DNA of 38,103 nucleotides from a virus: positions 1-38,103 of IMG/VR virus record IMGVR_UViG_3300021335_000038; one strand, 5' to 3'. Positions within the stretch are counted from its first letter, which is position 1; every line of letters begins with the position of its first letter. Below the pieces are notes generated by a model, which was given only the letters and a program-made list of their open reading frames with translations, was not told the DNA's origin and did no database searches. Shown here in pieces: positions 1-26,593 of this stretch. Made by a program: the position numbers and the translations under genes.

Positions 1-162
1 TGCGCCTACATCAATATTCTCTACGATCTCTTTCATATCCATGTAGTCTTTATAAAACTCAAAGCCGCCCCACAATCCTCCTCCGAGTGTAGAGAGTGCG
101 GTAAGAACGACCATCATTTTGCCGCCTTTAAAAGTCATTCCTGCAAATTCAATTTCCGCCAT
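1..162 (-). CDS. Small membrane-associated phage protein, 3' end outside window
   Basis: An open leftward frame starts at ATG 162-160 (MAEIEFAGMTFKGGKMM) and runs off the window after 54 codons without a stop. It has a short polar N-terminus and then a hydrophobic glycine-rich stretch at about residues 16-32 that could be one membrane segment, followed by a charged FYKDYMDMKEIVE region. Its start overlaps the stop of the upstream gene (149-151), the tight coupling used throughout this leftward block. It resembles a small protein that I recall from marine phages, with no known function. The product is unassigned; that it is a real gene is well supported by the uninterrupted frame and the overlap. 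Confidence 0.7.
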   Translation of the reverse strand, partial: MAEIEFAGMTFKGGKMMVVLTALSTLGGGLWGGFEFYKDYMDMKEIVENIDVGA

Positions 163-607
163 CATCATTCTCAAATTGAAGCGACCGGAGATTCTCCAGC
201 TCTTGCTTCAGTCTTTGCACTTCAAGTCGCTCTCTTTCAAGTGCAAGTTGGTACAGTGTATTACAATTTATACGTTCTTCTGGCCCGTCAAGAGGTATAG
301 TAATACGGGCATAAACCCCTACATTTCTGTTATAGTCGTTAAACGATTGTTGACCAACAATATCATAGCCTGGCTGATCTAGTAATCCGACTACGCCAAA
401 TTCCACATTTGTAGAGGAACCTATTGCATTGGAGCAATCTTTATCTCCAATACGAAATCTATCTGATTGATAACTAGAAGGTGATTGGGGGAGGGCAAGA
501 TTTACAGACTGAGCCTTTGCCTCTCTAGCATACATAGATACTAAAAAGACAAAAACCCATCCTATTATAAATACACCCGACCAAAACCATCTAGCATCTT
601 TTATCAT
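149..607 (-). CDS. Exported or membrane-anchored protein with C-terminal coiled coil
   Basis: 152 residues. The N-terminus (MIKDARWFWSGVFIIGWVF) holds a hydrophobic segment at about residues 8-24, followed by AREAKA, so it is either a signal anchor or a cleaved signal sequence. The central part has beta-strand character (VEFGVVGLLDQ, NVGVYARITIPLD) and two cysteines, C58 and C115, that could form a disulfide. The last 35 residues are heptad-like (LALERERLEVQRLKQELENL) and probably coil. It overlaps the next gene by a few bases (ATGA at 604-607). I recall similar proteins in marine phage genomes, always beside other exported proteins. Function unknown; a periplasmic or virion-surface role is only inference. 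Confidence 0.75.
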   Translation of the reverse strand: MIKDARWFWSGVFIIGWVFVFLVSMYAREAKAQSVNLALPQSPSSYQSDRFRIGDKDCSNAIGSSTNVEFGVVGLLDQPGYDIVGQQSFNDYNRNVGVYARITIPLDGPEERINCNTLYQLALERERLEVQRLKQELENLRSLQFENDDGGN

Positions 608-975
608 TTAATTTTTGAACATACCTTAGATGCTACTAATGATTTTTGTACCGCACCTCTTTTCAGCTTTGACTGAGTGCAGATATAAGTAGCTTCATCT
701 TTATCTTGGTCCCTTATAAAAACCTCTATGTGAGCTCTACCGAGATAATCAACTTTTTTCAAGTCTCCCCCTGTTGCAATAAAACTTACTGGTTGCATAT
801 CCGCATCAAAGACTTCTACTTTAAAAAATCTAACGTCTTGACGAGCATTCCAAAGTACAACGTGAGTGCTCAGTACTCCAGGAATGTAACTCGGAGTAAG
901 TTTTGGATATGTAGGCGTAAGCTCGTGGGCCATCGCTGACCCACTTACAAACAGTAGTGCAAGTAGACGTTTCAC
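604..975 (-). CDS. Secreted small protein, Ig-like beta fold suspected
   Basis: 123 residues from GTG 975, which shares its G with the TAG stop of the upstream gene (TAGTG). That start gives a textbook signal peptide, MKRLLALLFVSGSAMA followed by HELTPTYP; another GTG at 990 would add five residues and is less likely. The mature part alternates hydrophobic strands (THVVLWNARQDVRFFKVEVFD, HIEVFIRDQD) and ends with two cysteines (YICTQSK, KVCSKIK) that may pair. The strand pattern is reminiscent of the N-terminal domain of periplasmic PapD-like chaperones, but the protein is only half the usual size and I cannot show homology. It sits directly downstream of a pilin-like gene, so a chaperone-subunit pair is a testable idea. 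Confidence 0.72.
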   Translation of the reverse strand: MKRLLALLFVSGSAMAHELTPTYPKLTPSYIPGVLSTHVVLWNARQDVRFFKVEVFDADMQPVSFIATGGDLKKVDYLGRAHIEVFIRDQDKDEATYICTQSKLKRGAVQKSLVASKVCSKIK

Positions 976-1469
976 TAGAGTGGAATACACTCTGCCAAGA
1001 TAACTGCTGTATAGTTACCTGCTGGCAAAGACTTTGCAAAACCATAGTCTGCTGACGATGAAATCTTGAACCAAGTACTTCCGGCAACGCTCATGTTGTA
1101 CTCGTGAGTGTTGTTGTAAGTTACTTTGTTTGCATCATAATCAGACATAAGTGTATCTGAAACTTCTGATACATTTACATCTCCTGTCCAGTTTACTACG
1201 TCAGTCAATGATGGCGCAGATGAAAACTCAGTTGGAAATGAGATTACAGCTTTATAGAAGTCTGCTGCAATTACGTCATATCGAATAACTGGCTCAACAC
1301 CGCCGTTCTGTGGATCAGTAGTAAGTAAATTAGGGCTTGGGTTACCGAAGACACCTACGGTGTCCGTCATAACGATACATTTAGAATCTACAGTACCGTT
1401 AATCTCTGTCTGTGCCAGTGCCCCTGTGGCCGCTAACGAAGCCACCGCTGTTGCTAGTATCTTTTTCAT
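975..1469 (-). CDS. Secreted pilin-like / spore-coat-U-like beta protein
   Basis: 164 residues with a clear signal peptide (MKKILATAVASLAATGALAQ, cleavage about residue 19) and a good Shine-Dalgarno sequence (GGGGGAGAG) ahead of ATG 1469. The mature chain is almost all beta: TEINGTVDSKCIVM near the start, many short hydroxyl-rich strands, and AECIPL at the extreme C-terminus. One cysteine near each end and the G-T-V-x-x-K-C opening recall fimbrial subunits and spore-coat-protein-U domains. I do not see enough to claim membership. It is followed by the putative Ig-like secreted gene at 604. A surface or periplasmic structural role is likely; whether it belongs to the virion or the infected cell is unknown. 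Confidence 0.75.
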   Translation of the reverse strand: MKKILATAVASLAATGALAQTEINGTVDSKCIVMTDTVGVFGNPSPNLLTTDPQNGGVEPVIRYDVIAADFYKAVISFPTEFSSAPSLTDVVNWTGDVNVSEVSDTLMSDYDANKVTYNNTHEYNMSVAGSTWFKISSSADYGFAKSLPAGNYTAVILAECIPL

Positions 1470-1482
1470 TAGTCTCTCCCCC

Positions 1483-1593
1483 TTACAAAAATAGTAAGGC
1501 TATGATAAAGCCTACGTTGAGTCCAAGAGAACATACTAAAAGCATATCCTGCTTAAACGAGTAGGGTATCATTTCTATAAATTTATCTTTCAT
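1483..1593 (-). CDS. 36-residue single-span membrane peptide
   Basis: A small leftward gene (MKDKFIEMIPYSFKQDMLLV...) from ATG 1593 to TAA 1483. Its start overlaps the end of the 1583-2428 gene by 11 bases, and it fills the gap before the pilin-like gene, whose ribosome-binding site lies just after its stop. Residues 17-36 are hydrophobic (MLLVCSLGLNVGFIIALLFL) and would form one transmembrane helix reaching the C-terminus. The upstream half is amphipathic and charged. No motif identifies a function. Existence is supported by the fit between neighbours rather than by similarity. Confidence 0.55.
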   Translation of the reverse strand: MKDKFIEMIPYSFKQDMLLVCSLGLNVGFIIALLFL

Positions 1594-2428
1594 ATTGAAG
1601 GTCTATCATCTTCTTATGAAGAAGCTCTTGGGCATAATTAGCCCTGCGTCCTTGCATATTATCTTGAATCTCGCCGCCGTTTAGCTTTATAGTTTCAAGA
1701 TATTCTCCCCCATCCAGGAGGTCGTAATAATTTGTCGGAAGCACTTTGTATAATTCTGCAAGTTTTGCAAGCTCCAGTGCTTCGTCGGCTAGCTTTGGAT
1801 TTGTACCGTCCCCCAACACTTTTTCTATCGCACTATCAATAGTACTTTCGCGTTGTCGTCGCCTACGGTCTTCCTCTTCTTGTTCTTGGTCTATTTTAGC
1901 TTGTTGTTGCATCTGTTGCATAACAAACTCATCGTTTAGTGGGTCAACGAAAGGTATTTCTGGTACTTCTACTTCTTTTTCGTATCCTGGACAGCTAGAG
2001 TCTGATTGAGGGTCCGAACAAGTATCATACTTATAAGTATAAATTACGTTGGCGTCTACAACTTCACCCTGTCCTGTCCAAGTAATTGAACCATCACCCC
2101 AGAAGTCTGAAGTGATGTTTGGTAATATAAATTTACGTCTTATCGTATTTCCGGGCTGACCTGTCCAGTTATCTGCAAACTGAAAAATATAACCATCGCC
2201 TTGTGCATTTTCATTCTGCACGTACACAACCATCTCATCCTCTGCGTTTTTAATAGTAGTATACTGATAAACAAGACCATTCACTTCCAAGCCTGTGTAT
2301 GCTGGAAGAACATTTGTCATAACCCAGTTAAGACCAGTAGCTGTACTGGTTCCGTATACTATTTCAGAGTGCGATGAGGAGGAGTAACAAAGCGCCAACC
2401 CCACCAGCACCGATAGCTGTTTTCTCAT
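1583..2428 (-). CDS. Large secreted protein of the exported-protein block
   Basis: 281 residues with signal peptide MRKQLSVLVGLALCYSSSSHS. Residues about 25-150 form a beta-rich domain with many aromatic residues (FADNWTGQPGN, FWGDGSITWTGQG), followed by DTCSDPQSDSSCPGYE with two close cysteines. A proline/acid-rich linker and a highly charged Q/E/R-rich helix (about residues 170-200) lead to a conserved-looking tail ending ELLHKKMIDLQYER. Its first 65 bases overlap the end of the 2364-2903 gene in another frame, a long overlap, but the signal peptide makes the ATG at 2428 convincing. I recall relatives in uncultured marine phages with the same tail motif; none has a known function. Confidence 0.75.
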   Translation of the reverse strand: MRKQLSVLVGLALCYSSSSHSEIVYGTSTATGLNWVMTNVLPAYTGLEVNGLVYQYTTIKNAEDEMVVYVQNENAQGDGYIFQFADNWTGQPGNTIRRKFILPNITSDFWGDGSITWTGQGEVVDANVIYTYKYDTCSDPQSDSSCPGYEKEVEVPEIPFVDPLNDEFVMQQMQQQAKIDQEQEEEDRRRRQRESTIDSAIEKVLGDGTNPKLADEALELAKLAELYKVLPTNYYDLLDGGEYLETIKLNGGEIQDNMQGRRANYAQELLHKKMIDLQYER

Positions 2429-2903
2429 TCTTTGTCAGCTCCCGATCTTGCTTCTGGATTTCTTCAGGGCTAGAGAGTTCTGCACTCTCCCAAGCAGCTT
2501 TGGCTTCAGCCCCTACAAGTCCATCCTTGGGGCAAGGGGTCCCCGCATTCATCATTGCATCAAAGACTCTCTGATCTTGACACATTACTGATACTGCGGC
2601 AACTTTCATTCCCATATCGTAGAGTGTCTTAGCGTTCTTTAGCATCTCACAGTTATCATCTGTAATCTGCGTACCAGTAGATACGCCAAGTATTTGAGTT
2701 TGTACTGCACCTGCGACACCGAAGGTACACAGGTCAGAATTAGAAGTATTTATGGTAGGGCTTATAGCCGAAGGAGGTGGAGACTTTAGTGTAGTAGTCG
2801 TATCAGAAGTTACAGTAGATTCAGTAACAATCGGTTCTTCTTGAGCATAAGAAGTTATGGCCGTGGCAAGAAGCAGCAGAGCAATTCCCAGTTTTCTACA
2901 CAT
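2364..2903 (-). CDS. Secreted protein with C-terminal membrane anchor (PPPSAISP family)
   Basis: 179 residues. Signal peptide MCRKLGIALLLLATAITSYAQ, a Thr/Ser-rich linker, then a block that I recognise from marine phage genomes: KSPPPSAISPTINTSNSDLC, GAVQTQILG, and TLYDMGMKVAAVSVMCQDQR followed by VFDAMMNAGTPCP. Four conserved-looking cysteines suggest disulfides, hence a periplasmic location. The C-terminus is a glycine/leucine hydrophobic run (GAGGVGALLLLLIAL), a tail anchor or second membrane segment. It is immediately downstream of the lipoprotein at 2906, separated by two bases. The family is widespread in marine phages as far as I recall but has no known role; proximity to spanin-like genes hints at envelope function. 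Confidence 0.78.
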   Translation of the reverse strand: MCRKLGIALLLLATAITSYAQEEPIVTESTVTSDTTTTLKSPPPSAISPTINTSNSDLCTFGVAGAVQTQILGVSTGTQITDDNCEMLKNAKTLYDMGMKVAAVSVMCQDQRVFDAMMNAGTPCPKDGLVGAEAKAAWESAELSSPEEIQKQDRELTKNEKTAIGAGGVGALLLLLIAL

Positions 2904-2905
2904 TT

Positions 2906-3334
2906 TTATTCCTGTTGTTGATCTTCTAGAGCTTCTTCATTTTGCTCTAGCCAATCTTCCGAGTCAGTACCTATGTCGCTTTGCGTAGCTTCACGATAGT
3001 AGATAATGATTTCTTTTTGTTGACGAATATACCTGCGTAGTTCCTGTAAATTATAGGCCATATTCTCATAGTCTTGTGGAGTAAGACCAAAAAGTACATA
3101 AGTCCCGTCTTGCATTTTCTCTAATTTTGCTACCTGTTCTTCAAAGTTTCTCTCTGTAATTACAAAGAACTCTACATCTTGTAGATCAATCGCTTTGGGA
3201 AGAGGTGGCTGATAAATCTCTAAAGTTTTAAACTCTGTTACTGTTTTAATAATTGGTTCTGGGGCTGGAAGAGGCTGGGGTAGCAGCGAACATCCTCCTA
3301 GCGTAAGTAATAGTACACTACTGAGAATCCGCAT
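2906..3334 (-). CDS. Lipoprotein, candidate outer-membrane spanin (o-spanin)
   Basis: 142 residues. The N-terminus MRILSSVLLLTLGGCSLLPQ is a lipoprotein signal with lipobox L-G-G-C, cleaved so that Cys15 becomes the lipidated first residue; there is no Asp at +2, so sorting to the outer membrane is expected. A proline-rich stretch follows (PQPLPAPEPI), then FFVITERNFEEQVAKLEKM and a helix LRRYIRQQKEIIIYYREA, and an acidic tail. The gene overlaps the coiled-coil membrane gene at 3318 by 17 bases, the arrangement of Rz/Rz1 pairs. Together they would fuse inner and outer membranes in the last step of lysis. The assignment rests on architecture, not on a recognised spanin signature. Confidence 0.62.
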   Translation of the reverse strand: MRILSSVLLLTLGGCSLLPQPLPAPEPIIKTVTEFKTLEIYQPPLPKAIDLQDVEFFVITERNFEEQVAKLEKMQDGTYVLFGLTPQDYENMAYNLQELRRYIRQQKEIIIYYREATQSDIGTDSEDWLEQNEEALEDQQQE

Positions 3335-3740
3335 TTTCTACCTCCTGACTTGCTTCCTCGATAGCACGAAATACTTCTTTCGTACCATTATTAATTCTTG
3401 GTTCTATAAGTCCTGGCTTGGCTCTAGCTAACTTAGTAAGATTGTGACGCTTAAAGATAGATAAGTAGTCATCCATTTCTGCCTGTAATGAGTCGTTTCT
3501 TTCAGTAAGAGCACCAACCATTTCTAGCTGTTTAGTAAGATTTTGCTCTACTCGCTCTCGGGAAGCTTTTTCAGTCTCGTAAGCAGTCTCTAGTCTTACC
3601 ACATTATTACGCAGTGTGACTGCATTTGCTTCGAGCTGTGCTATCGTAGCATCTTTTTTAGCTACAGTAGTGGTGTGGTAAGCATACGCTCCACCAGCAA
3701 CTACAAGCAACAACGGCAGCATTTTAAACATATCAAACAT
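3318..3740 (-). CDS. Inner-membrane coiled-coil protein, candidate i-spanin
   Basis: 140 residues. Residues about 5-22 (FKMLPLLLVVAGGAYAYH) form one N-terminal membrane helix. Residues about 28-95 are a long heptad-rich coil (AQLEANAVTLRNNVVRLETAYETEKASRERVE, continuing to MDDYLSIF), then LARAKPGLIEPRINNGTKEV and an acidic end. This matches Rz-type i-spanins: N-in membrane anchor plus periplasmic coiled coil. I recall marine phage proteins with the same HxLxxLAxxKPGLxExxIN motif annotated as i-spanin. Its start overlaps the upstream stop (TAATG at 3738-3742), and its 3' end overlaps the lipoprotein start, consistent with one lysis unit. The endolysin itself is far away at 7922 on the other strand. 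Confidence 0.7.
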   Translation of the reverse strand: MFDMFKMLPLLLVVAGGAYAYHTTTVAKKDATIAQLEANAVTLRNNVVRLETAYETEKASRERVEQNLTKQLEMVGALTERNDSLQAEMDDYLSIFKRHNLTKLARAKPGLIEPRINNGTKEVFRAIEEASQEVENADSQ

Positions 3741-4009
3741 TATTTTACCTTTTTAATCTGGAAGTTAAACGCTTCTTGCGTTCGTAACTCAAAAGGCTCT
3801 CCAGATGTAAGCCTGCCTTTTAAGTGTCTAGGCTCGCATTTATCTAGCCATTTAAATTGATATTCTGTTTTCTTTTGTGGGTCTATCCATATTGTGACTA
3901 CCCACTCATTAAAGAAAAGATTAACAATCCAGCGTACCGGCCAAGAGACAATTTTCAATAAAATTTTCCCAACGCTTTTCAATTTGTTCGCGCTCTTTGT
4001 AAGTAGCAT
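3740..4009 (-). CDS. Small conserved phage membrane-associated protein
   Basis: Up to 89 residues. It has an amphipathic/hydrophobic N-terminal region rich in W, V and I (KIVSWPVRWIVNLFFNEWVV), then a beta-rich domain (EYQFKWLDKCEPRHLKGRLT) and a basic end. ATG 4009 makes an 89-base overlap with the 3921-4214 gene. A TTG at 3958, preceded by GGGAAA, would give a 72-residue protein starting at KIVSWP and reduce the overlap to 38 bases, so that start is a serious alternative. The KxxEPRHLKGRL block is one that I recall from marine phages. No function is known to me. Confidence 0.65.
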   Translation of the reverse strand: MLLTKSANKLKSVGKILLKIVSWPVRWIVNLFFNEWVVTIWIDPQKKTEYQFKWLDKCEPRHLKGRLTSGEPFELRTQEAFNFQIKKVK

Positions 4010-4214
4010 ATAAAGCTTCCCTCTGACTATCTGGTACTGAGTGGTATTCTTGCCACTCTTCTGGTGTCATAAATTTCTTTTTTGGGTAAGATAACCCTAG
4101 TTCAAATGTGTAATAGAGCTGGCCCGTAACTAAGTCTTCAGTAGACTCCAGGTTAGGGGCCATTGCAACACACCCGCTCAAAAGTAGTAGGGGTGTTATT
4201 TTTTGCCAGACCAC
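3921..4214 (-). CDS. Small lipoprotein
   Basis: 97 residues from GTG 4214. That start gives MVWQKITPLLLLSGCVAMAP, a compact lipoprotein signal with lipobox L-S-G-C and no Asp at +2. The frame stays open further upstream, but those codons lie inside the 4196-4519 gene and read as out-of-frame sequence, so the GTG is preferred. The mature part is polar, with YTFELGLSYPKKKFMTPEEW and a charged helix EREQIEKRWENFIENCLLAG. No Shine-Dalgarno sequence is obvious; expression is probably coupled to the upstream gene, which it overlaps by 19 bases. Function unknown; an envelope lipoprotein next to spanin-like genes. Confidence 0.6.
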   Translation of the reverse strand: MVWQKITPLLLLSGCVAMAPNLESTEDLVTGQLYYTFELGLSYPKKKFMTPEEWQEYHSVPDSQREALYATYKEREQIEKRWENFIENCLLAGTLDC

Positions 4215-4519
4215 GCTTGAGCACCGAAGAATGCTGCAACGATACCAGCCACTGACACAAAGTATACTGATGCCATTGACCCGAGTATTTCTGCTGCTTG
4301 ATGTAGTCCCATAACTTCTGTGGTCATAACTGTAGCAGGATAAAGTAGCATACCAGCTAAAGCAAACCACGTCATCTTGCGTTGAGCATCTCGCATTGCA
4401 TCTTGATCTTCAAGTTCTTTACGCTTGAACTCAAGATACATTTTATGCTCTTCGTCGCTAACCCTACCGTCTCCGTTAGAGTCTGCTGGATGATACTTCT
4501 GTTCTTCGCTCACTACCAC
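4196..4519 (-). CDS. EF-hand-like protein with two membrane segments, holin candidate
   Basis: 107 residues. The N-terminus carries one canonical calcium-binding loop, DSNGDGRVSDEE (residues about 13-24), followed by a charged helix and then two hydrophobic segments, FALAGMLLYPATVMTTEVMG (about 52-71) and SVYFVSVAGIVAAFFGAQAW (about 84-103), ending in SGKK. The size, two spans, charged ends and place beside spanin-like genes fit a class II holin, but the EF-hand domain is not typical of holins and the role could instead be calcium sensing or structural. I recall EF-hand plus two-TM proteins of this design in cyanophages, without known function. Confidence 0.68.
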   Translation of the reverse strand: MVVSEEQKYHPADSNGDGRVSDEEHKMYLEFKRKELEDQDAMRDAQRKMTWFALAGMLLYPATVMTTEVMGLHQAAEILGSMASVYFVSVAGIVAAFFGAQAWSGKK

Positions 4520-4824
4520 TTCACCTTATCGGCCCAATAAGCTGCGCTCATTTTGCCCTTTGCGATATTACGACGATGACGAGCTTTAAATGATGCTCGT
4601 TTTTTCTTCATACGGTCGCTTTCGCCCGCTTTCGGTTTCCCCGCAGTCTTTGCACCTTGCTGACCGAAACGAATAGTCTTTACCTTGCCGCCAACTTTAG
4701 CCACAACAATATGTGACTTTTTAGGGTGTTTTGGAGTACGCTTCGGCTTGTTATAGCCAGACACTTTAGCTCGGGCCAAGCGAGGATCTTTTTTACGTCT
4801 AACCGCTTTTCTTTTTCTTGGCAC
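4513..4824 (-). CDS. Very basic small protein (SYNKPKRTPKHP-type phage family)
   Basis: 103 residues, strongly basic, opening with MPRKRKAVRRKKDPRLARAK. The central block GYNKPKRTPKHPKKSHIVVA and the following KTIRFGQQGAKTAGKPKAGE, then MKKKRASFKARHRRNIAKGK and AYWADKVKW, form a pattern that I recall as a conserved phage family of unknown function. There is no signal or membrane segment. The charge suggests nucleic-acid binding or a packaged internal protein. It overlaps both neighbours (4799-4824 upstream, 4513-4519 downstream) in the same leftward operon. Confidence 0.75.
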   Translation of the reverse strand: MPRKRKAVRRKKDPRLARAKVSGYNKPKRTPKHPKKSHIVVAKVGGKVKTIRFGQQGAKTAGKPKAGESDRMKKKRASFKARHRRNIAKGKMSAAYWADKVKW

Positions 4825-5017
4825 GTTTCTTAGTTCCTAATCGTTGCCTCTCTGCTAACAGAGTTTTTGGCACCCGCTTGCCCTGTTTATAGAGCCTTGC
4901 AATACGCTTCAGTACAGAAGCAAGTTTAGCTCGACGGGAGCCAGCAGTACCGCTAAGATACTTCTTATTGACTCCCGTCTTCTTGTCTTTAGTAGCGCGT
5001 CTTCTTTTTCTTGCCAT
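4799..5017 (-). CDS. Lysine/arginine-rich small protein
   Basis: 72 residues, roughly 40 percent Lys plus Arg, starting MARKRRRATKDKKTGVNKKY followed by LSGTAGSRRAKLASVLKRIA and ending KKRAKKKKSG. The DKKTGxxKKYLSG segment recalls short phage proteins of unknown function that I have seen in marine genomes. It overlaps the next gene by 26 bases and is overlapped at its start by the 23-residue basic peptide gene. Polyamine-like DNA neutralisation, or a ribosomal-protein-like RNA binder, are possible; nothing in the sequence decides. Confidence 0.7.
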   Translation of the reverse strand: MARKRRRATKDKKTGVNKKYLSGTAGSRRAKLASVLKRIARLYKQGKRVPKTLLAERQRLGTKKRAKKKKSG

Positions 5018-5060
5018 TTTTACGCTTCTTCTTTTTAGCTTTGTGCATACCGTGCTTCAT
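4989..5060 (-). CDS. 23-residue basic peptide
   Basis: A tiny reading frame, MKHGMHKAKKKKRKNGKKKK then TRY, from ATG 5060 to TAA 4989. Its ATG overlaps the TGA of the upstream membrane-peptide gene (ATGA at 5057-5060), and it overlaps the start of the next basic gene by 29 bases, where its AAGAAGAAGCG run may also act as a purine-rich binding site for ribosomes. More than half the residues are Lys or Arg. The ATGA coupling is the best evidence that it is translated; it could alternatively be just leader sequence. Confidence 0.4.
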   Translation of the reverse strand: MKHGMHKAKKKKRKNGKKKKTRY

Positions 5061-5182
5061 TTAAGGTCTCCGCCGCCGTTTCCGTCGCCGTTGCCTCCAG
5101 CACCATTACTTCTACGGTCATGGCGACCTTTCCACCACCATAGGCCTCCGCCTAGTACAACTAAAAATACAATCCATTCCAT
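5057..5182 (-). CDS. 41-residue single-span membrane peptide with Gly-rich tail
   Basis: A small leftward gene from ATG 5182 to TGA 5057: residues 1-17 (MEWIVFLVVLGGGLWWW) form one membrane segment, then KGRHDRR sets a positive-inside cytoplasmic flank, and the rest is SNGAGGNGDGNGGGDLK. It starts three bases after the stop of the 5185-5502 gene, with AAAGGAAATA upstream as ribosome-binding site. It sits in a run of lysis-like and basic genes; a small holin/antiholin-like or assembly peptide is possible but unproven. Confidence 0.6.
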   Translation of the reverse strand: MEWIVFLVVLGGGLWWWKGRHDRRSNGAGGNGDGNGGGDLK

Positions 5183-5184
5183 AT

Positions 5185-5502
5185 TTATTTCCTTTTTGTT
5201 CTAAGATCCGTATCGTGTTTCTTAGATCCTCGGATAAACGAGTTCACACGTGCGTGTGCCCAGCGTGACATTGTCATACCGGGTCGTGATCCGCTTGATA
5301 AAAACGCACCTTGTCCACGTCTGTAGACTTTCTTTAGGGTGCTTAATGATTTTCCGCTCTTCTTAGCCTTTGCTCTCAAAGACTTAACTACTGCTGCGGA
5401 TAATGGCTTGGCTTTGCGACGTGGCGTAGCCTTCTTTTTGGTAGGAAATCTCCGTCTTTTGGCAGGAGACTTACGAGTTGATTTTCTTTTGCGAACTGCC
5501 AT
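5185..5502 (-). CDS. Basic DUF5824-like phage protein, first gene of operon
   Basis: 105 residues. The N-terminal third is very basic (MAVRKRKSTRKSPAKRRRFP and on), then a helical segment LSAAVVKSLRAKAKKSGKSL and a conserved-looking block KVYRRGQGAFLSSGSRPGMT followed by MSRWAHARVNSFIRG. The second half strongly recalls the phage family that I know as DUF5824, often annotated only as hypothetical. The basic N-terminus suggests DNA or RNA contact. The gene follows a long, G+C-rich leader, and its AGGAG ribosome-binding site and AUG lie in a short hairpin (5501-5515), so its translation may be regulated. Confidence 0.75.
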   Translation of the reverse strand: MAVRKRKSTRKSPAKRRRFPTKKKATPRRKAKPLSAAVVKSLRAKAKKSGKSLSTLKKVYRRGQGAFLSSGSRPGMTMSRWAHARVNSFIRGSKKHDTDLRTKRK

Positions 5503-11413: not shown

Positions 11414-11454
11414 AAAAAATAATTCTTGACAAATTTTTCGATTGGTCTCATAAT
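11414..11454 (+). promoter_or_regulatory. Sigma70-like promoter for the auxiliary-metabolism operon
   Basis: AAAAAATAATTC, TTGACA (11426-11431), 17 bases, CATAAT (11449-11454), starting two bases after the epimerase stop. It should drive 11478-15043. The message start would fall just ahead of ATG 11478, giving a short leader. Confidence 0.87.
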
Positions 11455-11477
11455 AGATGCTTCAATGGAGACCTTAT

Positions 11478-12074
11478 ATGAATCTTTTTTACTTAGATAG
11501 TGACCTCGACAAATGTGCAGAAGCGCACGTTGACAAGCATATTGTAAAAATGCCTCTCGAGGTTGCACAGATTTTATGCACGACCATTTGGATTGACACG
11601 CATCTGGGGTTTATTCCTCGCGAGTTGAATAAAGAAGAACGTGACCATCTAAATGAGCTAAAGAAAGAGATCAAACATCTTCCACCAGAGGAGAGACCCC
11701 TAACCCCATATTTACCTATGATGTATAACCATCCTTGCACAATATGGGCACGATCATCACTAGATAATCACGAATGGACGCATTGCTATGGTAATGCCCT
11801 AGGAGAAGAATACCGTTATCGCTATGGAAAGCAACACAAGTCAGTTACAGTTATCAACAACTTACCCGACCCAGTCAATCTTGAACGAGTGGGGTTCACC
11901 ACGTTTGGACTTGCGATGCCTGACATACTCAAAGACTATGACAATCCAATACAGTCTTATCGTGACTATTATCATCTTGACAAGGCTACTTTCGCCAGTT
12001 GGAGTGGTAGACCAACTCCCGATTGGTGGGATGAGTCTCTTGCTGACTATGAACAAAGGATCACAGCGAAATGA
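11478..12074 (+). CDS. Conserved phage protein, His-rich (MNLFYLD...DKHIVKM family)
   Basis: 198 residues from ATG 11478 (an ATG 21 bases upstream lies too close to the predicted transcription start). It opens MNLFYLDSDLDKCAEAHVDK followed by HIVKMPLEVAQ, later MMYNHPCTIWARSSLDNHEW, GEEYRYRYGKQHKS and a PDWWDESLADYE end. The conserved His, Cys and Trp residues suggest a metal-binding enzyme or nuclease. I recall this family in cyanophages and other marine phages, always annotated as hypothetical. It overlaps thyX by four bases, so a link to nucleotide metabolism or DNA repair is possible. Function unknown. Confidence 0.78.
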   Translation: MNLFYLDSDLDKCAEAHVDKHIVKMPLEVAQILCTTIWIDTHLGFIPRELNKEERDHLNELKKEIKHLPPEERPLTPYLPMMYNHPCTIWARSSLDNHEWTHCYGNALGEEYRYRYGKQHKSVTVINNLPDPVNLERVGFTTFGLAMPDILKDYDNPIQSYRDYYHLDKATFASWSGRPTPDWWDESLADYEQRITAK

Positions 12075-12760
12075 GTAAGGTAAGTTTAGTTGGCTTAACA
12101 AAGCCGAATGCTATGACTGGATGTAGTACGGCTGAAGAGCTAGTCGCATATGCGGCTAGAGTAAGCAATCCAGAAAATCAAAATCACCACGAAAGCGCAC
12201 CACGATTGCTTCGATACCTTATCAAGCACGGTCACTGGTCGCCCTTTGAGATGGTGAGTATTACTATGGAGATAGTAACAACTCGAGATATTGCTAGACA
12301 AATACTACGACACCGTAGTTTTAGCTTTCAAGAGTTTAGTCAGAGATACGCAGTACAGGGAAACTTTGTTCGTCGTGAAGCTCGACTACAAGACCCAAAG
12401 AACCGCCAGAACAGCATTGAGCTAGACGAGACGGAAGACTTTGGAAAGGGCGGTAATAAGTCTCCTCACGAGAGACTATATGAAGACTGGAGTATGAAAC
12501 AGGCTCAAGTAATCGAAGCATCAAAAAATGCTTACGAGTGGGCTCTGAATAATGGTATTGCCAAAGAGCAGGCCAGAGCTGTACTACCAGAAGGCAACAC
12601 AGAGTCAACCTTGTATATGAGTGGTACTCTTCGTTCGTGGATTCATTATTGCGAACTTCGTCGCGGACACGGCACACAAAAAGAGCATATGGTAGTGGCT
12701 GACCAGTGTTGGGACATTATAACACAACACTTTCCCGATGTAGCGGAGGCACTAGAATGA
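12071..12760 (+). CDS. thyX: Flavin-dependent thymidylate synthase
   Basis: 229 residues. The ThyX signature R-H-R-x(7)-S-x-R is present in full as [15 protein letters not shown] (residues about 77-91), with [10 protein letters not shown] and HGHWSPFEM before it and [20 protein letters not shown] and [10 protein letters not shown] after it. The enzyme methylates dUMP to dTMP using FAD, NADPH and methylene-tetrahydrofolate, and supplies thymidine for phage DNA synthesis. It acts as a tetramer in the cytoplasm. It overlaps both neighbours by four bases (ATGA), so it is translated together with the isocitrate lyase gene downstream. Confidence 0.95.
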
Positions 12761-13992
12761 GTAAGAGAAGAAGTTACAGCCCTGAAGTAGTAAGAAACCT
12801 CCAGGGTACACAACACATTGAGCACACTATTGCTCGAGATATGGCAGTAAAGATGCGGAAGTTGTTATCCGAAAATCCTTACGTCCATACGTTTGGAGCT
12901 TATAATGGACAACAAGCAGTACAGCACGTTAAAGCAGGACTTAAAGCAATTTATTGTTCGGGCTGGCAGGTCGCTGCGTCGGCTAACACATCGAATGAGG
13001 TATATCCAGATCAAAGCCTCTATCCGGTGGATTCGGTTCCGACTGTGGTACGCAACATCAACAATGCCTTTCGCAGACAAGATCAAATCGAGTATGCGGA
13101 AACAGGGGAAGGCTTTTCATTTGCACCGATTATCGCGGATGCAGAGGCAGGGTTTGGAGGAGTCTTAAATAGCTATGAGCTGGCACGAAATCTCATCGAA
13201 GCGGGAGCGGCAGGAGTCCACTTCGAAGACCAACTCTCCTCCGCCAAAAAGTGTGGACATCTCGGCGGGAAAGTTCTTATCCCTATTAGTGATGCCATTC
13301 GTAATCTTAACGCTGCTCGTCTCGCTGCTGATGTTTGTGGAACAGAGACACTCATCATTGCGAGAACAGACGCAGAGAGTGCGCAGTTACTCTCCAGTGA
13401 TTACTGCTCCGCTGATCGTAAGTGGATTAAAAGACACAGACAGGGCTCAAGTGGAAGCATTGCTGCTAGAACAGCAGATGGCTTCTGGCAAATCGAAGGT
13501 GGTTTGGAAATGGGGTGTGAGCGGGGGGCTGCATATGCAGAGTATGCCGATCTCGTCTGGTGCGAAACCAGCACTCCCTGTCTCAAAGACGCAAAACGAT
13601 TCGCTGACGCAGTAAAGGGTTCTTGCCCCAACGCTATGTTAGCGTATAACTGTTCTCCTAGCTTTAACTGGAGACAGTCAATACCTGGAGATACTGAACT
13701 TCAGGATTTTCAAATGGAGCTAGGTCGTATGGGCTTTAAGTTCCAATTTATTACACTTGGGGGATTTCATAGCACAAACTTTGCGGTATTTAACTTTGCT
13801 CGTCAGTATAAGCATCAAGGAATGCTTGCGTATAGTGACTTGCAAGAAGGAGAGTTCCGCGCAGAAGAGTTTGGGTATACGTCAACACGACACCAACGAG
13901 AAGTTGGAGTAGGTTATTTTGATGAAATTACAAAAGCACTTGGCGGGTCTACAGAAGCTCTCAAGGACTCTACAGAATCCGCACAATTTTAA
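12757..13992 (+). CDS. aceA: Isocitrate lyase
   Basis: 411 residues from ATG 12757 (overlaps thyX by four bases; a longer upstream frame is inside thyX). It aligns by eye along its whole length with bacterial isocitrate lyases: [11 protein letters not shown] (67-77), [13 protein letters not shown] (83-95), metal-binding [10 protein letters not shown] (126-135), the catalytic KKCGH loop (164-168, nucleophile Cys166), [18 protein letters not shown] (297-305), [12 protein letters not shown] and the C-terminal closing tail TESAQF. The enzyme splits isocitrate into succinate and glyoxylate, the first step of the glyoxylate shunt. Full length and KKCGH (not KRCGH) argue against methylisocitrate lyase, which is about 290 residues. 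No malate synthase gene is in the window. Confidence 0.95.
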
Positions 13993-14245
13993 ATACTTTA
14001 TACCCCTACTTCTCGTAGGGTGTACAACAGTAGAAGACGACAGAATATGTTTAGACTGGGGACATTATCCTATAGTAGAAGAGAAGTGTACCCCGCTTTA
14101 TGGTAGTTTAGTTTGTACTACCGAAGAAACCACCAAATATTGGTGTAAACTTTATGAGGAGACAAATGAAAAGATTAGTAGCAGTAACAATCGCTTTAAC
14201 ATCTACGATCACATGGGCAGACGATCGGTTTCAAGATATTCGTAA
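13922..14245 (+). CDS. Small cysteine-rich lipoprotein
   Basis: 107 residues from ATG 13922. A hydrophobic stretch [12 protein letters not shown] ends in a lipobox (L-V-G-C), but about 23 residues precede it, which is long for a lipoprotein signal; a TTG at 13943 would shorten it. The mature part has a regular cysteine pattern ([37 protein letters not shown]) that suggests two disulfides in the periplasm. It overlaps the end of the isocitrate lyase gene by 71 bases and the start of the cytochrome c gene by 80, unusually long overlaps. Its place between lyase and cytochrome could mean an envelope partner of the respiratory proteins, or just packing. Confidence 0.6.
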
Positions 14246-14474
14246 GCCTTGGGCACAGTGTGTAGCTTGTCATGGTGCACAAGGACAAGGCGGTATCGGT
14301 CCAGCACTAGTAGGACAGTCTGCTGATGATATTATCAACAAACTACTTGCATATAAGGCAGGAACTCCTGTAGGACCACAATCTGCTATGATGTATCCTG
14401 TAGCAAAGAGCCTTACTGATGGACAAATTGGCACTATTGGTGTGTTTGTTCAAGAGGGCTTTCCGGAGCAGTAA
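14166..14474 (+). CDS. Periplasmic class I cytochrome c
   Basis: 102 residues from ATG 14166, placed behind GAGGAG. Signal peptide [18 protein letters not shown], cleaved before DDRF. Heme attachment motif C-V-A-C-H at residues 32-36, then GQGGIGPALVGQ, and a candidate distal Met ligand at Met75 or Met76 (QSAMMYPVAKSL), with a C-terminal helix GQIGTIGVFVQE. This is the c4/c5-like mono-heme layout. It needs the host Ccm machinery for heme attachment in the periplasm and could carry electrons between bc1 complex and a terminal oxidase or another acceptor. It ends at the first base of the alternative oxidase ATG region (overlap of one base), so the two are co-translated. Confidence 0.92.
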   Translation: MKRLVAVTIALTSTITWADDRFQDIRKPWAQCVACHGAQGQGGIGPALVGQSADDIINKLLAYKAGTPVGPQSAMMYPVAKSLTDGQIGTIGVFVQEGFPEQ

Positions 14475-15043
14475 TGAGCGACTATTTTGCTAAATCTATG
14501 ACAAAGTTTTTTCGTTTCACTGCGGATACATTTTTTCGCGAGCGTTACGGTCATAGAGCAGTAGTTCTGGAAACCGTGGCCGCAGTGCCAGGTATGATTG
14601 CAGGGATGCTCACTCACTTTGCCAGCCTGCGTACATTAAAGCGTGGGTATGGCACAAAAATACACGCAATGCTCGAAGAAGCAGAGAACGAACGCAAACA
14701 CTTAATATTTGTGCTACACATTACAAAACCCACTCCGCTGGAAAAAATTATTATTACAGTGGCACAAGTATTATTTTCAATATTTTATTTCATTCTGTTC
14801 TTAGTTTCTTCAAAGACAGCGCACAGAATGATAGGTTATTTCGAAGAAGAAGCAGTGGTAAGCTATACTGATTATATACAGCAAATCGACGATGGGGTAA
14901 TAGAAAATATTGTAGCCCCACGACCTGCCATAGAGTATTACAGTTTACCCCCTACAGCAACTCTTCGAGATATGCTAGTATGTATTCGTAGAGATGAAGC
15001 CGGACACAGTGCCGCTAACCATCACTATGCAGATATATCTTGA
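14474..15043 (+). CDS. Alternative oxidase (di-iron quinol oxidase)
   Basis: 189 residues. All six di-iron ligands of the AOX family are visible: Glu33 in VLETVAAVPG, Glu73 and His76 in ENERKHL, the EEE run 124-126 in YFEEEAVVSYT, and Glu175 with His178 in RRDEAGHSAANH. RFTADTFFRERYGHRAVVLE and PAIEYYSLPPTATLRDM are also family-specific, and a hydrophobic segment (about 92-112) lies between the two halves. AOX sits on the inner face of the membrane and passes electrons from ubiquinol to oxygen, making water without pumping protons. The DEAGHSAANH ending is of the respiratory AOX type rather than the plastid-type PTOX found in cyanophages. Last gene of its operon. Confidence 0.93.
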   Translation: MSDYFAKSMTKFFRFTADTFFRERYGHRAVVLETVAAVPGMIAGMLTHFASLRTLKRGYGTKIHAMLEEAENERKHLIFVLHITKPTPLEKIIITVAQVLFSIFYFILFLVSSKTAHRMIGYFEEEAVVSYTDYIQQIDDGVIENIVAPRPAIEYYSLPPTATLRDMLVCIRRDEAGHSAANHHYADIS

Positions 15044-15068
15044 CATATTTATCAATAGCCTTTATAAT
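15040..15068 (+). promoter_or_regulatory. Sigma70-like promoter
   Basis: TTGACA (15040-15045), 17 bases, TATAAT (15063-15068). The -35 box overlaps the stop codon of the alternative oxidase gene. It lacks the long A-tract of the others but keeps TCTTGACA. It drives the 15091 HTH gene, whose GGAGG lies 12 bases downstream. Confidence 0.88.
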
Positions 15069-17228: not shown

Positions 17229-18152
17229 ATGCGCGACTTTCTTGACAAAGCATCCAAAGCCTATTACGAAGGCAGCCCTATTATTACTGACGCTGAGTTT
17301 GATTATCTTAGTAGTAAGTATAATTATGATGAGGTTGGCTATCGTTCTGACTTTAAATTTTCACATATGTACCCTATGCGTAGCCTTCAAAAGGTTTACC
17401 CTGGAGATGCTCAGCCATTTCCTGCGGGCACAGGTACAACAATAGTAACTCCCAAACTTGACGGAGCCGCAGTATCTCTTCGATACTACGATGGCCGTTT
17501 TGTTCTCGGGCTTACTCGTGGAGATGGTAAGAAAGGTGTAGATGTAACTGAAAAATTAGCACTACACGTCCCTGACAATATCGACCTTACTGGTGAATTT
17601 CAAATCACCGGCGAGTTAGTTTGTCCAAAGACTGTGCCTAATGCAAGAAATGTCGCTGCTGGGTCACTTAATTTGAAAGACCTAGAAGAGTTCAAGACTC
17701 GGCCACTAACTTTTGTAGCTTATGATATTCAACCACATATTACTGAGCGCTGGTCAGACGATATGGAGAAGTTGGTATTTAAAGGCTTCAATACTGTGCT
17801 TGAGTCCGACTGGCAACAATTCCCCCAAGATGGTAAAGTATTTCGACTTAACTCTATAGAACAGTTTAATGAGTTGGGGTACACCGCCCACCACCCTCGT
17901 GGGGCTTTCGCTTACAAAGAGCACCAAGTAGGTGTGCGAACCAAACTGCTCGATGTTGAGTGGAAAGTCGGTAAGTCGGGAGTTGTTTCGCCAGTCGCTA
18001 TATTAGAGCCCGTAGTCGTAGGAGAGGCTACAGTATCTCGTGCTACACTACACAATATTGCTTATATCGAATCTCTCGATCTTGAGATTGGTTGTGATGT
18101 AGAAATAATTCGCAGTGGGGAGATTATCCCTCGAATAGTAAGGAAACTATAA
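17229..18152 (+). CDS. ligA: NAD-dependent DNA ligase, N-terminal half (Ia, adenylation, OB fold)
   Basis: 307 residues. Domain Ia is shortened but present (KAYYEGSPIITDAEFDYL, residues 9-27), with its NMN-binding Tyr residues. The nucleotidyltransferase domain carries the adenylation lysine Lys76 in TPKLDGAAVSL, then TRGDGKKGVDVTE, ITGELV, ARNVAAGSL, and the OB fold with WKVGKSGVVSPVAILEPV, GEATVSRATLHN and GCDVEIIRSGEIIPRI. The chain then stops at VRKL, exactly where full ligases continue into the zinc finger. The missing part is encoded at 18857-19615. NAD+ is used to activate the enzyme, which seals nicks during lagging-strand synthesis. Both halves presumably assemble in trans. Confidence 0.93.
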   Translation: MRDFLDKASKAYYEGSPIITDAEFDYLSSKYNYDEVGYRSDFKFSHMYPMRSLQKVYPGDAQPFPAGTGTTIVTPKLDGAAVSLRYYDGRFVLGLTRGDGKKGVDVTEKLALHVPDNIDLTGEFQITGELVCPKTVPNARNVAAGSLNLKDLEEFKTRPLTFVAYDIQPHITERWSDDMEKLVFKGFNTVLESDWQQFPQDGKVFRLNSIEQFNELGYTAHHPRGAFAYKEHQVGVRTKLLDVEWKVGKSGVVSPVAILEPVVVGEATVSRATLHNIAYIESLDLEIGCDVEIIRSGEIIPRIVRKL

Positions 18153-18436
18153 TGGACGAAGAAAATGTATTTCTAATAGCCGGTTTTATTGATAGTGCTA
18201 CTGAGTATAAAGGTGCGATAGCCGTATACGACTACTTTTGGGCACTGACTCCTGATCTTCGTCAGAAGCTAATTGAGTCCTGGAGAAAGACTATTGATGA
18301 GCTAGAAAATGCCCATCCAGAATTAACTGATATATTTAACTCAGAAGACGAATACGGCTCTATGGCTGTCTTTTCTGACGAAGAGGCTGTAGAGATTCGT
18401 CCACCAAAAGATAATATACTAAAGTTCCCTTCATGA
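18152..18436 (+). CDS. Small acidic protein between ligase halves
   Basis: 94 residues, acidic, mostly helical: MDEENVFLIAGFIDSATEYK, IAVYDYFWALTPDLRQKLIE, then a SEDEYGSMAVFSDEEAVE acid region and an ILKFPS end. It overlaps the TAA of the first ligase gene (TAATGG) and the start of the GIY-YIG-like gene by four bases, so the three are one message. No family recognised. It may have come in with the endonuclease-like gene or be unrelated cargo. Confidence 0.65.
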   Translation: MDEENVFLIAGFIDSATEYKGAIAVYDYFWALTPDLRQKLIESWRKTIDELENAHPELTDIFNSEDEYGSMAVFSDEEAVEIRPPKDNILKFPS

Positions 18437-18795
18437 GTGGAGTATATAATCTTACATATTTTGAGAATCACCCAGAAGAAAAAGAACGCGATGGCGTACT
18501 GTACTGTGTGGTTCTAGTAAACCGTAAAACAAATAAAAGAGAGTGTTTGAAAATTGGAATTGCTTCAGGAAAAAATTGGAAGGATGTGTTACGTCGCAGT
18601 CGCGGATTTCACAACTACGATATTCGTATTCAACGTACCTATCACAGTACTCTTTTCAATGTATGGACGTTAGAGCAAGCTCTGCACGCAGAGTACGCTC
18701 ATTACCATTACAAGCCTATGGAAAAGTTCGGAGGGCACACAGAGTGCTTCGAGATAAAAAACGAGATTATTTTAGCTATACCATCAAAAAAATAA
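18433..18795 (+). CDS. GIY-YIG / T5orf172-like endonuclease domain protein
   Basis: 120 residues. The sequence GVLYCVVLVNRKTNKRECLK then IGIASGKNWKDVLRRSRGF has the LY-(x)n-KIGI core of the GIY-YIG superfamily (T5orf172/MUG113 type), an Arg in the following helix, and later EQALHAEYAHYHYKPM and FGGHTECFEI, which correspond to the catalytic Glu helix and the GG-x-TE-x-F ending. Such domains nick DNA and occur in homing endonucleases that sit between split phage genes. It lies between the two halves of the DNA ligase. The match is by motif; activity is not certain. Confidence 0.6.
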   Translation: MSGVYNLTYFENHPEEKERDGVLYCVVLVNRKTNKRECLKIGIASGKNWKDVLRRSRGFHNYDIRIQRTYHSTLFNVWTLEQALHAEYAHYHYKPMEKFGGHTECFEIKNEIILAIPSKK

Positions 18796-18827
18796 TTCTT
18801 GACTTTTTCAACTCAAACCCTTATAAT
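18786..18827 (+). promoter_or_regulatory. Sigma70-like promoter for the second ligase half
   Basis: AAAAAAATAATTC, TTGACT (18799-18804), 17 bases, TATAAT (18822-18827). The TAA stop of the GIY-YIG-like gene lies inside the A-rich lead. It gives the C-terminal ligase gene independent transcription. Confidence 0.9.
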
Positions 18828-18856
18828 ATTATTTCTTTCAGTGGAGATATAAATTC

Positions 18857-19615
18857 TTGAAAATACAAGCCCCGACGAATTGTCCTAGTTGTTCCTATAC
18901 TCTCGAGTGGCGGAATGACTTGTTGTATTGCGAGAATACCGCTTGCGAAGGCAAGAGTTCTCAGAAGCTCGAGCACTTTGCAAAGACACTGAAAATCAAG
19001 GGACTAGGCCCCGCCACGATCGACAAACTTCAACTAGAGTCTATTTTTGACATATATGAAATGAGTGTGGATTTGTTGACGGAGTTACTTAGTTCCGAAA
19101 AGCTAGCAGGTAAATTGTTTTTGGAAATCGAAGGGTCAAAATCATCCTCACTCGAAGAGGTACTGCCTGCATTCTCTATTCCTCTTATTGGAAAGAGTGC
19201 TACAGCTAAGCTATGTCCAATTATTAGTAATCTCGACGAGCTTACTGTAGAAATATGTGAGCTAGCAGGGCTCGGTCCTAAAGCTACACAGAACTTGATG
19301 GTCTGGTTTAATGAAGAATATCTTCCTTACTACCGATCACTGCCCTTCAGCTTTGCTTCTACTGTTAGCGAAGTAGCGCCTAGTAATACATCTATGGGTA
19401 TAGTATGTATCACAGGCAAACTATCCTCAGTAAAAACTAAAGCTGAGGCAGAAAGACTGTTGGTTGAAGCAGGATATACTACAAAATCGTCACTAACAAA
19501 GGATGTGACTATCCTGCTCAACGAAAGCGGACTTGAGTCTGCTAAAACTAAAAAGGCTAGAGATGCTGGCATCTCTATTGAAACTAATCTTAATAACCTC
19601 ATTGGAGTTAATTAA
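18857..19615 (+). CDS. ligA: NAD-dependent DNA ligase, C-terminal half (zinc finger, HhH, BRCT)
   Basis: 252 residues from TTG 18857, with GTGGAG ten bases upstream; no ATG gives the full domain. The four-cysteine zinc finger is intact (C9, C12, C25, C30: NCPSC...YCENTAC), followed by the helix-hairpin-helix array (LKIKGLGPATIDKLQ, FSIPLIGKSATAKL, LAGLGPKATQN) and a BRCT domain (GIVCITGKLSSVKTKAEAER, GYTTKSSLTKDVTILL). It starts precisely where the 17229 product ends, so together they rebuild one ligase. It probably binds DNA and the other half non-covalently. Confidence 0.92.
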   Translation: MKIQAPTNCPSCSYTLEWRNDLLYCENTACEGKSSQKLEHFAKTLKIKGLGPATIDKLQLESIFDIYEMSVDLLTELLSSEKLAGKLFLEIEGSKSSSLEEVLPAFSIPLIGKSATAKLCPIISNLDELTVEICELAGLGPKATQNLMVWFNEEYLPYYRSLPFSFASTVSEVAPSNTSMGIVCITGKLSSVKTKAEAERLLVEAGYTTKSSLTKDVTILLNESGLESAKTKKARDAGISIETNLNNLIGVN

Positions 19616-25335: not shown

Positions 25336-26015
25336 TGGGTCGTAGACGTAATGACCTACTAACAAAAAACAGTCTAATGCTGACTGAAATGGAACCACTT
25401 ACTTCTTCACAAGTAAAAGTGTGGGACTCCAGAAAAAACTTAATGCTACACGGTTGTGCGGGAACAGGTAAAACATTTATCTCTTGTTATCTTGATCTCG
25501 ATGATCTCGAAAAAGGTGAATACAAGAAAATAACAATTATTCGTAGTGTCGTACCTACTAGAGAAATGGGGTTCTTACCCGGGACTGAAAAAGAAAAGGC
25601 TCGAGTATATGAACAACCTTATGTTAGTATTTTCCAAGAGTTGTTTGGTAGAGGAGACGACCCTTATGGGCAGCTCAAAACAAAGGGCATAGTAGACTTT
25701 ATTACTACATCTCACATACGAGGGATCACTTTACACGATTCTGTAGTAATAGTAGACGAATGCCAAAATATGACTTTTCACGAGCTAGATAGTATTATTA
25801 CTCGATTAGGTCATAACTGTAGATTGATTTTCTGTGGCGATTTTTTCCAGTCTGATCTGAGAACTAATGGAGCTACAGGAACAGGTATTAATAAATTTAT
25901 GGATATACTCAAGAAAATGAACGAGTTTGATTTTGTTGAGTTCGGAGTGGGAGATATTGTTCGCTCCGATTTAGTTAAAAGTTATTTGATTACAAAATAT
26001 AAGGAAGGTATTTGA
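25335..26015 (+). CDS. phoH: PhoH-like P-loop ATPase
   Basis: 226 residues. Walker A GCAGTGKTF (residues 40-48, Lys46), the PhoH-specific ITIIRSVVPTREMGFLPGTE then EKARVYEQPYVSIFQELF, Walker B VVIVDECQNMT and LIFCGDFFQSDL (sensor-like). PhoH is among the most common auxiliary genes in marine phages; proposed roles include phosphate-starvation response and RNA handling, none settled. It shares its first base with the stop of the upstream gene, and its TGA overlaps the peroxiredoxin ATG, so it is inside a tightly coupled replication operon. Confidence 0.94.
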   Translation: MGRRRNDLLTKNSLMLTEMEPLTSSQVKVWDSRKNLMLHGCAGTGKTFISCYLDLDDLEKGEYKKITIIRSVVPTREMGFLPGTEKEKARVYEQPYVSIFQELFGRGDDPYGQLKTKGIVDFITTSHIRGITLHDSVVIVDECQNMTFHELDSIITRLGHNCRLIFCGDFFQSDLRTNGATGTGINKFMDILKKMNEFDFVEFGVGDIVRSDLVKSYLITKYKEGI

Positions 26016-26593
26016 TGGCAATTTATTGCACTGAATACGAACGACACAGCTACGAACAGGACCGACATTGGAATGCTCTGCCAAACTTGGTGCCTGCTGT
26101 TGAGTTTCACACAAGAGTAAAAGATGAGCTAGGAAACTTTCATTGGGAGGTTGTCTCTACTTTTCAGCTATTTGCAAAGAAAAGAGTTTTAGTATTTGCA
26201 TTGCCAGGCGCTTTCACGCCAACTTGTTCCACTTATCAGCTACCAAGTTTTGAACAACTTGCAGAAGACTTTTACTGTGAAGGTATTGACGATATTTACT
26301 GTATCACTGTAAATGACGCTTTTGTATGCAATGCTTGGGCAAAAGCTAACAATTTAGAGCATATCGAAGTAATTCCTGATGGCAGTGCTAAGTTTACTGA
26401 GCAAATGAATATGCTAGTAGATAAAGACAATCTTGGTTTTGGTCGCCGTTCTTGGAGATATGCCTTTATTGCAGATAACGGTCACATTAGTGACTGGTTT
26501 ATCGAAGAAGGGCGAGAAGACAACCATGACAAAGATCCTTATCTATACACTAATCCTGATTACATTCTTACTCAGCTAAGAGGTGGGAACTAA
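26015..26593 (+). CDS. Peroxiredoxin (Prx5-like)
   Basis: 192 residues from ATG 26015 (TGATG overlap with phoH; TTG 26012 rejected). The core LVFALPGAFTPTCSTYQLPS contains the peroxidatic Cys in the P-x-x-x-T-x-x-C motif, and DIYCITVNDAFVCNAWAKAN, VIPDGSAKFTEQMNM and RSWRYAFIADNGHISDWFIE follow the Prx5/GPx-like arrangement, including the conserved Arg in WRYA. It reduces hydrogen peroxide and alkyl peroxides using thiols, perhaps from the glutaredoxin encoded at 36939. An unusual gene to find in a replication block; it should protect from oxidative damage during infection. Confidence 0.92.
   Translation: MAIYCTEYERHSYEQDRHWNALPNLVPAVEFHTRVKDELGNFHWEVVSTFQLFAKKRVLVFALPGAFTPTCSTYQLPSFEQLAEDFYCEGIDDIYCITVNDAFVCNAWAKANNLEHIEVIPDGSAKFTEQMNMLVDKDNLGFGRRSWRYAFIADNGHISDWFIEEGREDNHDKDPYLYTNPDYILTQLRGGN

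Follow-up and report, generated by a model that had tools for sequence, protein, structure and literature searches.

An intact gene for isocitrate lyase (ICL; AceA) opens a phage cassette in which it is followed by a small lipoprotein, a c-type cytochrome and an alternative oxidase (AOX). The cassette lies in IMGVR_UViG_3300021335_000038, a linear virus contig of 38,103 bases that was analysed over its whole length (the window) and is the record of a virus that probably infects water-living bacteria. A joint carbon and quinol function of the ICL–AOX cassette was given a probability of about 0.5. The genes and promoters of this region are as follows.

11426–11454, + strand: sigma-70 promoter (TTGACA-17-CATAAT, 11/12) that opens the unit with ICL and precedes the phrog_624 gene.
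11457–12074, + strand: phage DNA-binding protein (phrog_624), the first gene of the unit (PHROG E = 1.2e-46).
12071–12760, + strand: ThyX, flavin-dependent thymidylate synthase (TIGR02170, 156.9 bits, cut-off 87.9).
12757–13992, + strand: isocitrate lyase (AceA), 411 aa, assigned by equivalog models, motifs, fold and tree.
13922–14245, + strand: small Cys-rich lipoprotein ORF with a FIPLLLVGC lipobox; in T5-like and T4-like phages its homologues follow ICL directly.
14154–14474, + strand: c-type cytochrome with a signal peptide, the CVACHG haem motif and an invariant Met80 (PF00034, 26.7 bits, cut-off 21.3).
14474–15043, + strand: AOX, ubiquinol oxidase (PF01786, E = 4.7e-65).
15040–15068, + strand: perfect sigma-70 promoter (12/12) of the following unit, the downstream limit after AOX.

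Eight near-consensus sigma-70 promoters (at most 1 mismatch) were detected in the window against 0.39 expected, a count reached in none of 100 shuffles, and all eight (5697–29819) sit in gaps and are oriented along the genes. The promoters at 11426 and 15040 place the DNA-binding protein, ThyX, ICL, the lipoprotein, the cytochrome and AOX in one promoter-to-promoter interval, and from this arrangement we infer that its genes would form one transcript.

The ICL frame (12757–13992, + strand) is uninterrupted and its product ends in STESAQF. The ATG at 12757 stands 7 nt downstream of GGAGG and forms an ATGA overlap with the thyX stop, bearing out the four-base linkage to thyX described in the first-pass annotation, and ThyX itself was confirmed by TIGR02170. 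A longer form starting from GTG at 12706 is possible and less well supported. The protein passed the cut-offs of both ICL equivalog models, NCBIfam NF011645 (596.7 bits, cut-off 562) and TIGR01346 (477.1 bits, cut-off 275.9), and with its 411 residues is the full-length phage ICL that had been claimed. PDB isocitrate lyases align over residues 4–411 with E values down to 3e-148, and a chance match is excluded. The motifs quoted earlier (15 protein letters and YNCSPSFNW) were located, and the catalytic motif set is complete (46 protein letters, TLxGFH and the closing C-terminal tail). Of 143 positions that are near-invariant among 52 aligned cellular ICLs, the phage ICL keeps 135, and none of the eight deviating positions (M33, F46, S75, C217, D241, G335, F347 and S376) is a catalytic residue of the motifs; the description of the gene as catalytically intact thus holds for its sequence. 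Catalytic positions are intact throughout the viral ICL clade to which the window belongs, in which residues 46 F, 254 C and 347 F are fixed.

The AlphaFold model of ICL had a pTM of 0.81, with low confidence in the active-site loop and C-terminal tail, and its top Foldseek matches were all ICLs (TM 0.83–0.88, 50–56% identity). Pairwise dN/dS with close viral relatives was about 0.09 (e.g., 0.069/0.76 against the T5-like contig L002), and this value, together with the open frame and the kept catalytic positions, rules out a pseudogene or fragment. The gene product is almost certainly an isocitrate lyase and very probably an active enzyme. Bacterial AceA (NF011645/TIGR01346; PDB 6LRP, 7CMX, 1F61 and 1IGW) is similar in length, fold, catalytic motifs and C-terminal tail at 50–61% identity, whereas the phage ICL forms its own viral clade, lacks about 20–30 N-terminal residues present in the aligned PDB chains and has no aceB neighbour.

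At least 320 stretches with an ICL relative were found in IMG/VR, and among the best 80, which were retained, the closest viral ICLs reach 91% identity. The closest cellular ICLs found are 57–61% identical. In the careful tree, viral ICLs form a single clade (bootstrap 100, SH-aLRT 99; 100% of bootstrap trees), which is nested within a clade of 100/99 support that also holds six alphaproteobacterial sequences, and the quick trees concur. The nesting indicates that the gene has long resided in phages, where purifying selection acts on it, and that it is no fragment, in agreement with the earlier statement that it is not a random fragment. The phage ICL was most likely acquired once from an alphaproteobacterium and has been evolving in viruses since. 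The donor phylogeny proposed in the first-pass annotation thus points to the Alphaproteobacteria as the probable source. Recent capture from a host was rejected, since the best cellular ICL found reaches 61%, compared with 91% among viruses, and the viral clade is supported at 100/99.

The viral ICLs fall into two subclades. Clade 1 (the window, Phage C48C1 and L002–L032) occurs on a T5-like and on an unrelated T4-like backbone; the T4-like one is recognised by a T4-type polymerase, helicase, clamp loader or RegA of C48C1 and by UvsX in L320. Clade-2 ICLs (L033–L081) occur in other phages, mostly downstream of NrdA; one clade-2 phage that was checked also encodes NrdB and an endolysin and gave weak matches to structural proteins. 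The clade-2 ICLs are 60–62% identical to that of the window, and neither AOX nor malate synthase was present in the 10 records tested. Between relatives of the window, ICL is conserved at 81–91%, compared with 62–65% for the polymerase, 52–53% for the helicase and 57–61% for PhoH, and it is also better conserved than the primase. Phage C48C1 was the sole genuine isolate-type record found with ICL. Further "phage" ICL matches, from records of Salmonella, Escherichia and Acinetobacter, resemble pieces of bacterial chromosome and were rejected; the chromosome-like records in the phage collection are AFYI01000007, AGRM01000005, OR850939, OR845679 and CAKLQH020000022.

The lipoprotein ORF, whose start is uncertain, overlaps the end of ICL on one side and the beginning of the cytochrome gene on the other. 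It starts inside ICL in the window and L002, and past ICL in other relatives. Despite resembling noise, it was counted as a real fourth member because many relatives and a T4-like phage have a homologue immediately downstream of ICL; across T5-like and T4-like phages the homologues are found behind ICL or before AOX. It matched no family in Pfam or PHROG. The cytochrome shows the CxxCH motif, distal Met and fold of a class I c-type cytochrome. Its profile matches in PDB are c554/c552/c4, its predicted fold resembles c546/556 and c553, and C36, C39, H40 and M80 are invariant among 15 sequences. AOX, whose start overlaps the cytochrome stop by one base, matches the Pfam model over its full length (residues 1–187, 219.7 bits, cut-off 22.7), and all four diiron motifs (LET, NERxH, EEEA and RxDExxH) aligned with those of solved mitochondrial AOX. 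The dN/dS was about 0.04–0.08 for AOX (pairs with estimable dS) and 0.17 for the cytochrome.

The order ICL–lipoprotein–cytochrome–AOX is identical in the window, L002 and a T4-like contig (G059/L320), and the cytochrome and AOX genes overlap in both the window and L320. The insertion sites differ, lying between ThyX and 15091 in the window and between PhoH and UvsW in L002. The presence of the cassette on unrelated backbones and at different sites indicates that the block moves, and that it is held together by selection or common transfer. AOX was detected in 22/33 clade-1 ICL records and 0/10 clade-2 records, and a CBB3-type cytochrome match in 14/32 and 0/10, respectively (three of the positives were retrieved via AOX). 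Six relatives (L003–L005 and L010–L012) carry ICL, lipoprotein and AOX without an intervening cytochrome, and in L005 the cytochrome is found close to the DnaB gene. ICL has AOX, lipoprotein and cytochrome beside it more constantly than ThyX. The first-pass reading is supported yet incomplete, as the conserved partners of ICL are the lipoprotein ORF, the c-type cytochrome and AOX rather than thyX.

In the tree, the AOXs found in ICL phages are spread over more than one clade, indicating that the ICL–AOX pair was assembled repeatedly or that partners were swapped. Many of the records are fragments. ICL was not seen in 44 of the 49 AOX-carrying viral records tested, and clade 2 lacks AOX, so that neither gene needs the other; with the partner swaps, this makes the association strong, not obligate. 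AOX relatives at 51–82% identity were found at 76 IMG/VR loci (including L180–L244), most without ICL in the record. The AOXs of two bacterial genomes, L306 (G715; gammaproteobacterial, 1.3 Mb) and L323 (G309; alphaproteobacterial), group among viral AOXs in the tree, and these genomes may represent a host, a donor or a prophage.

The window has no match to the malate synthase TIM-barrel (PF01274), as had been noted before. For a linear contig of 38.1 kb this absence alone proves nothing; the search was also negative in 42 other ICL virus records (0/43 in all), and the positive controls, E. coli and 5 other genomes, were all detected. The class V aminotransferase family holds many glyoxylate aminotransferases, and no member was found in 42 ICL virus records. 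Taken together, these results imply that glyoxylate must be handled by the host.

Isocitrate lyase yields succinate and glyoxylate, and succinate dehydrogenase feeds electrons into quinone; AOX passes quinol electrons to oxygen without proton pumping, and cytochrome c serves the bc1/oxidase branch. In the mechanism that we infer, including its timing and direction of flux, the cassette and thyX would be transcribed from the host-type sigma-70 promoter. Phage ICL would split host isocitrate into succinate and glyoxylate, so that in the infected cell the two TCA-cycle steps that release CO2 and yield NADH are bypassed. Succinate would re-enter via host succinate dehydrogenase and load the quinone pool, AOX would re-oxidise the quinol with O2 and drain electrons without pumping protons, and the cytochrome would maintain supply of the bc1/oxidase branch. 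Oxaloacetate and aspartate could then go to pyrimidines, and glyoxylate either to host malate synthase or, through glycine, to purines and one-carbon units. The host is assumed to provide ubiquinone for AOX and maturation for cytochrome c. Precursor flow might thereby continue without electron back-up or oxidative damage. Given host malate synthase or glycine-forming host enzymes, C4 and C2 precursors would become available to the phage with less NADH and CO2.

Other explanations were weighed against this joint carbon and quinol function. ICL may mainly be a source of glyoxylate for glycine, feeding purines and one-carbon units for ThyX and nucleotides, with the AOX linkage secondary. The position of ThyX directly upstream, the co-occurrence of nrdA, glutaredoxin and thyX in this phage and the lack of malate synthase from the 43 records fit such a role, but without a class V aminotransferase (the family searched for) it would need host enzymes, and ThyX is found beside ICL less constantly than AOX, lipoprotein and cytochrome; we consider it unlikely. 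Slightly less likely again is a normal glyoxylate shunt, in which ICL would work alongside the malate synthase of the host, serving anaplerosis or energy supply on acetate or fatty acids, and AOX would give only anti-oxidant protection. Some SAR11 have malate synthase without ICL (PMC10030771), aceA and aceB have been reported in ocean viromes (Hurwitz 2013, PMC4053976), and an aceBA operon in a 179-kb T4-like environmental genome (TARA EVG) was presented as the first known from a complete viral genome (Nishimura 2017, PMC5332604); both studies proposed such a shunt. However, none of the records tested here carries a viral malate synthase, and the shunt alone leaves the conserved cytochrome and AOX unexplained.

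That the cassette is a passenger, carried without benefit by recombination or mobile elements, is very improbable. The position of the block does differ between related phages, but dN/dS is low, catalytic positions are intact across the viral clade, and ICL is more conserved between relatives than polymerase, helicase and primase. The chance that this is an enzyme of the ICL superfamily with another function is close to nil: although the superfamily is shared and the PEP_mutase Pfam model matches too, the methylisocitrate lyase (PrpB) model TIGR02317 scored 103.5 bits against a cut-off of 354.4 and the phosphonomutase model CPEP_Pphonmut 44 bits against 420, both ICL equivalogs were passed, and the protein falls inside bacterial ICLs in the tree. 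The first-pass annotation had named a PEP mutase-like placement as the result that would overturn its reading, and the opposite was found.

The joint carbon and quinol function can also be stated more broadly. Phages of non-photosynthetic hosts might share a horizontally moving four-gene cassette that acts as a unit, uncoupling the infected cell's TCA cycle from energy conservation, with the lipoprotein as a partner of the oxidase or cytochrome, and this might be an independently evolved respiratory counterpart of the photosynthetic electron-transport cassette of cyanophages. We hold this wider proposal tentatively, at less than even odds.

Phage aceA has already been reported, so ICL in a phage is not new by itself. 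Viral ICL is also mentioned for Ross Ice Shelf viruses (PMC10721903) and proglacial lake viruses (PMC12783922). The reports of viral aceA and aceBA share with the window an ICL as a phage auxiliary metabolic gene; the window has no malate synthase, and its linked lipoprotein, cytochrome c and AOX go unmentioned in their accessible text. Neither AOX in phages of non-photosynthetic hosts nor ICL joined to cytochrome c and AOX was found described in the searchable literature (outside subscription papers and preprints), and AOX is apparently an unreported gene of non-cyanobacterial phages.

The plastocyanin/PTOX/zwf/gnd cassette of cyanophages has been hypothesised to be mobile and to prevent electrons from backing up (PMC3037559). 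Both it and the cassette of the window are mobile, and in both an enzyme of carbon metabolism is joined to a small soluble carrier of electrons and a quinol oxidase of the AOX family, but the window has cytochrome c in place of plastocyanin (petE) and ICL in place of pentose-phosphate enzymes. No zwf, gnd or photosynthesis genes were seen among the annotated proteins of the window. By analogy, the two cassettes appear to parallel each other in logic, with different genes. A relationship of AOX to cyanophage PTOX was not borne out, as tblastn at 1e-5 over 50,697 phage records matched only Phage C48C1. This T4-like phage (OQ984149, 156 kb) resembles the window in its ICL (74% identical), AOX (56%) and a lipoprotein relative, but its ICL and AOX are 18 kb apart and both are annotated "hypothetical protein"; no publication on it was found in the searchable literature. 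A Prasinovirus alternative oxidase (PMC12584671) is likewise an AOX-family gene in a virus, but belongs to a eukaryotic algal virus and a plastid-type context.

Phage metabolic genes are well understood solely for photosynthetic hosts. A conserved carbon and respiration cassette in phages of other aquatic bacteria suggests that large lytic phages may generally need to control the quinone pool, which is testable; with the cassette, the virus may be able to redirect how carbon and electrons flow in the cell that it infects. Viral aceA is usually listed under "glyoxylate shunt", and its occurrence without malate synthase in the phages tested changes how it is counted in carbon-cycle models.

The right part of the window carries the phage replication genes, namely those for an NAD ligase in two pieces, a DnaB-type helicase, primase, family A DNA polymerase, PhoH, a UvsW-like helicase, SbcCD, a 5'-3' exonuclease, NrdA and glutaredoxin. 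The polymerase is closest, at 43%, to those of T5-like phages of Vibrio and Aeromonas, among them Ceto and Akh-2. The NAD-dependent DNA ligase (17229–19615, + strand) is split into an adenylation/OB ORF and a C-terminal ORF, which are separated by two small ORFs, one of them GIY-YIG-like by eye. A peroxiredoxin-like protein is encoded at 26012–26593 (+ strand); its relatives lie near AOX or ICL in L008, L009, L013 and C48C1, which fits an oxidative-stress theme. On the − strand, 4513–5502 encodes three small, strongly Lys/Arg-rich proteins (phrog_7595, DUF5824 and one unnamed) that possibly bind or condense DNA, and 149–4370 holds a gene run of small signal-peptide proteins of no known family.
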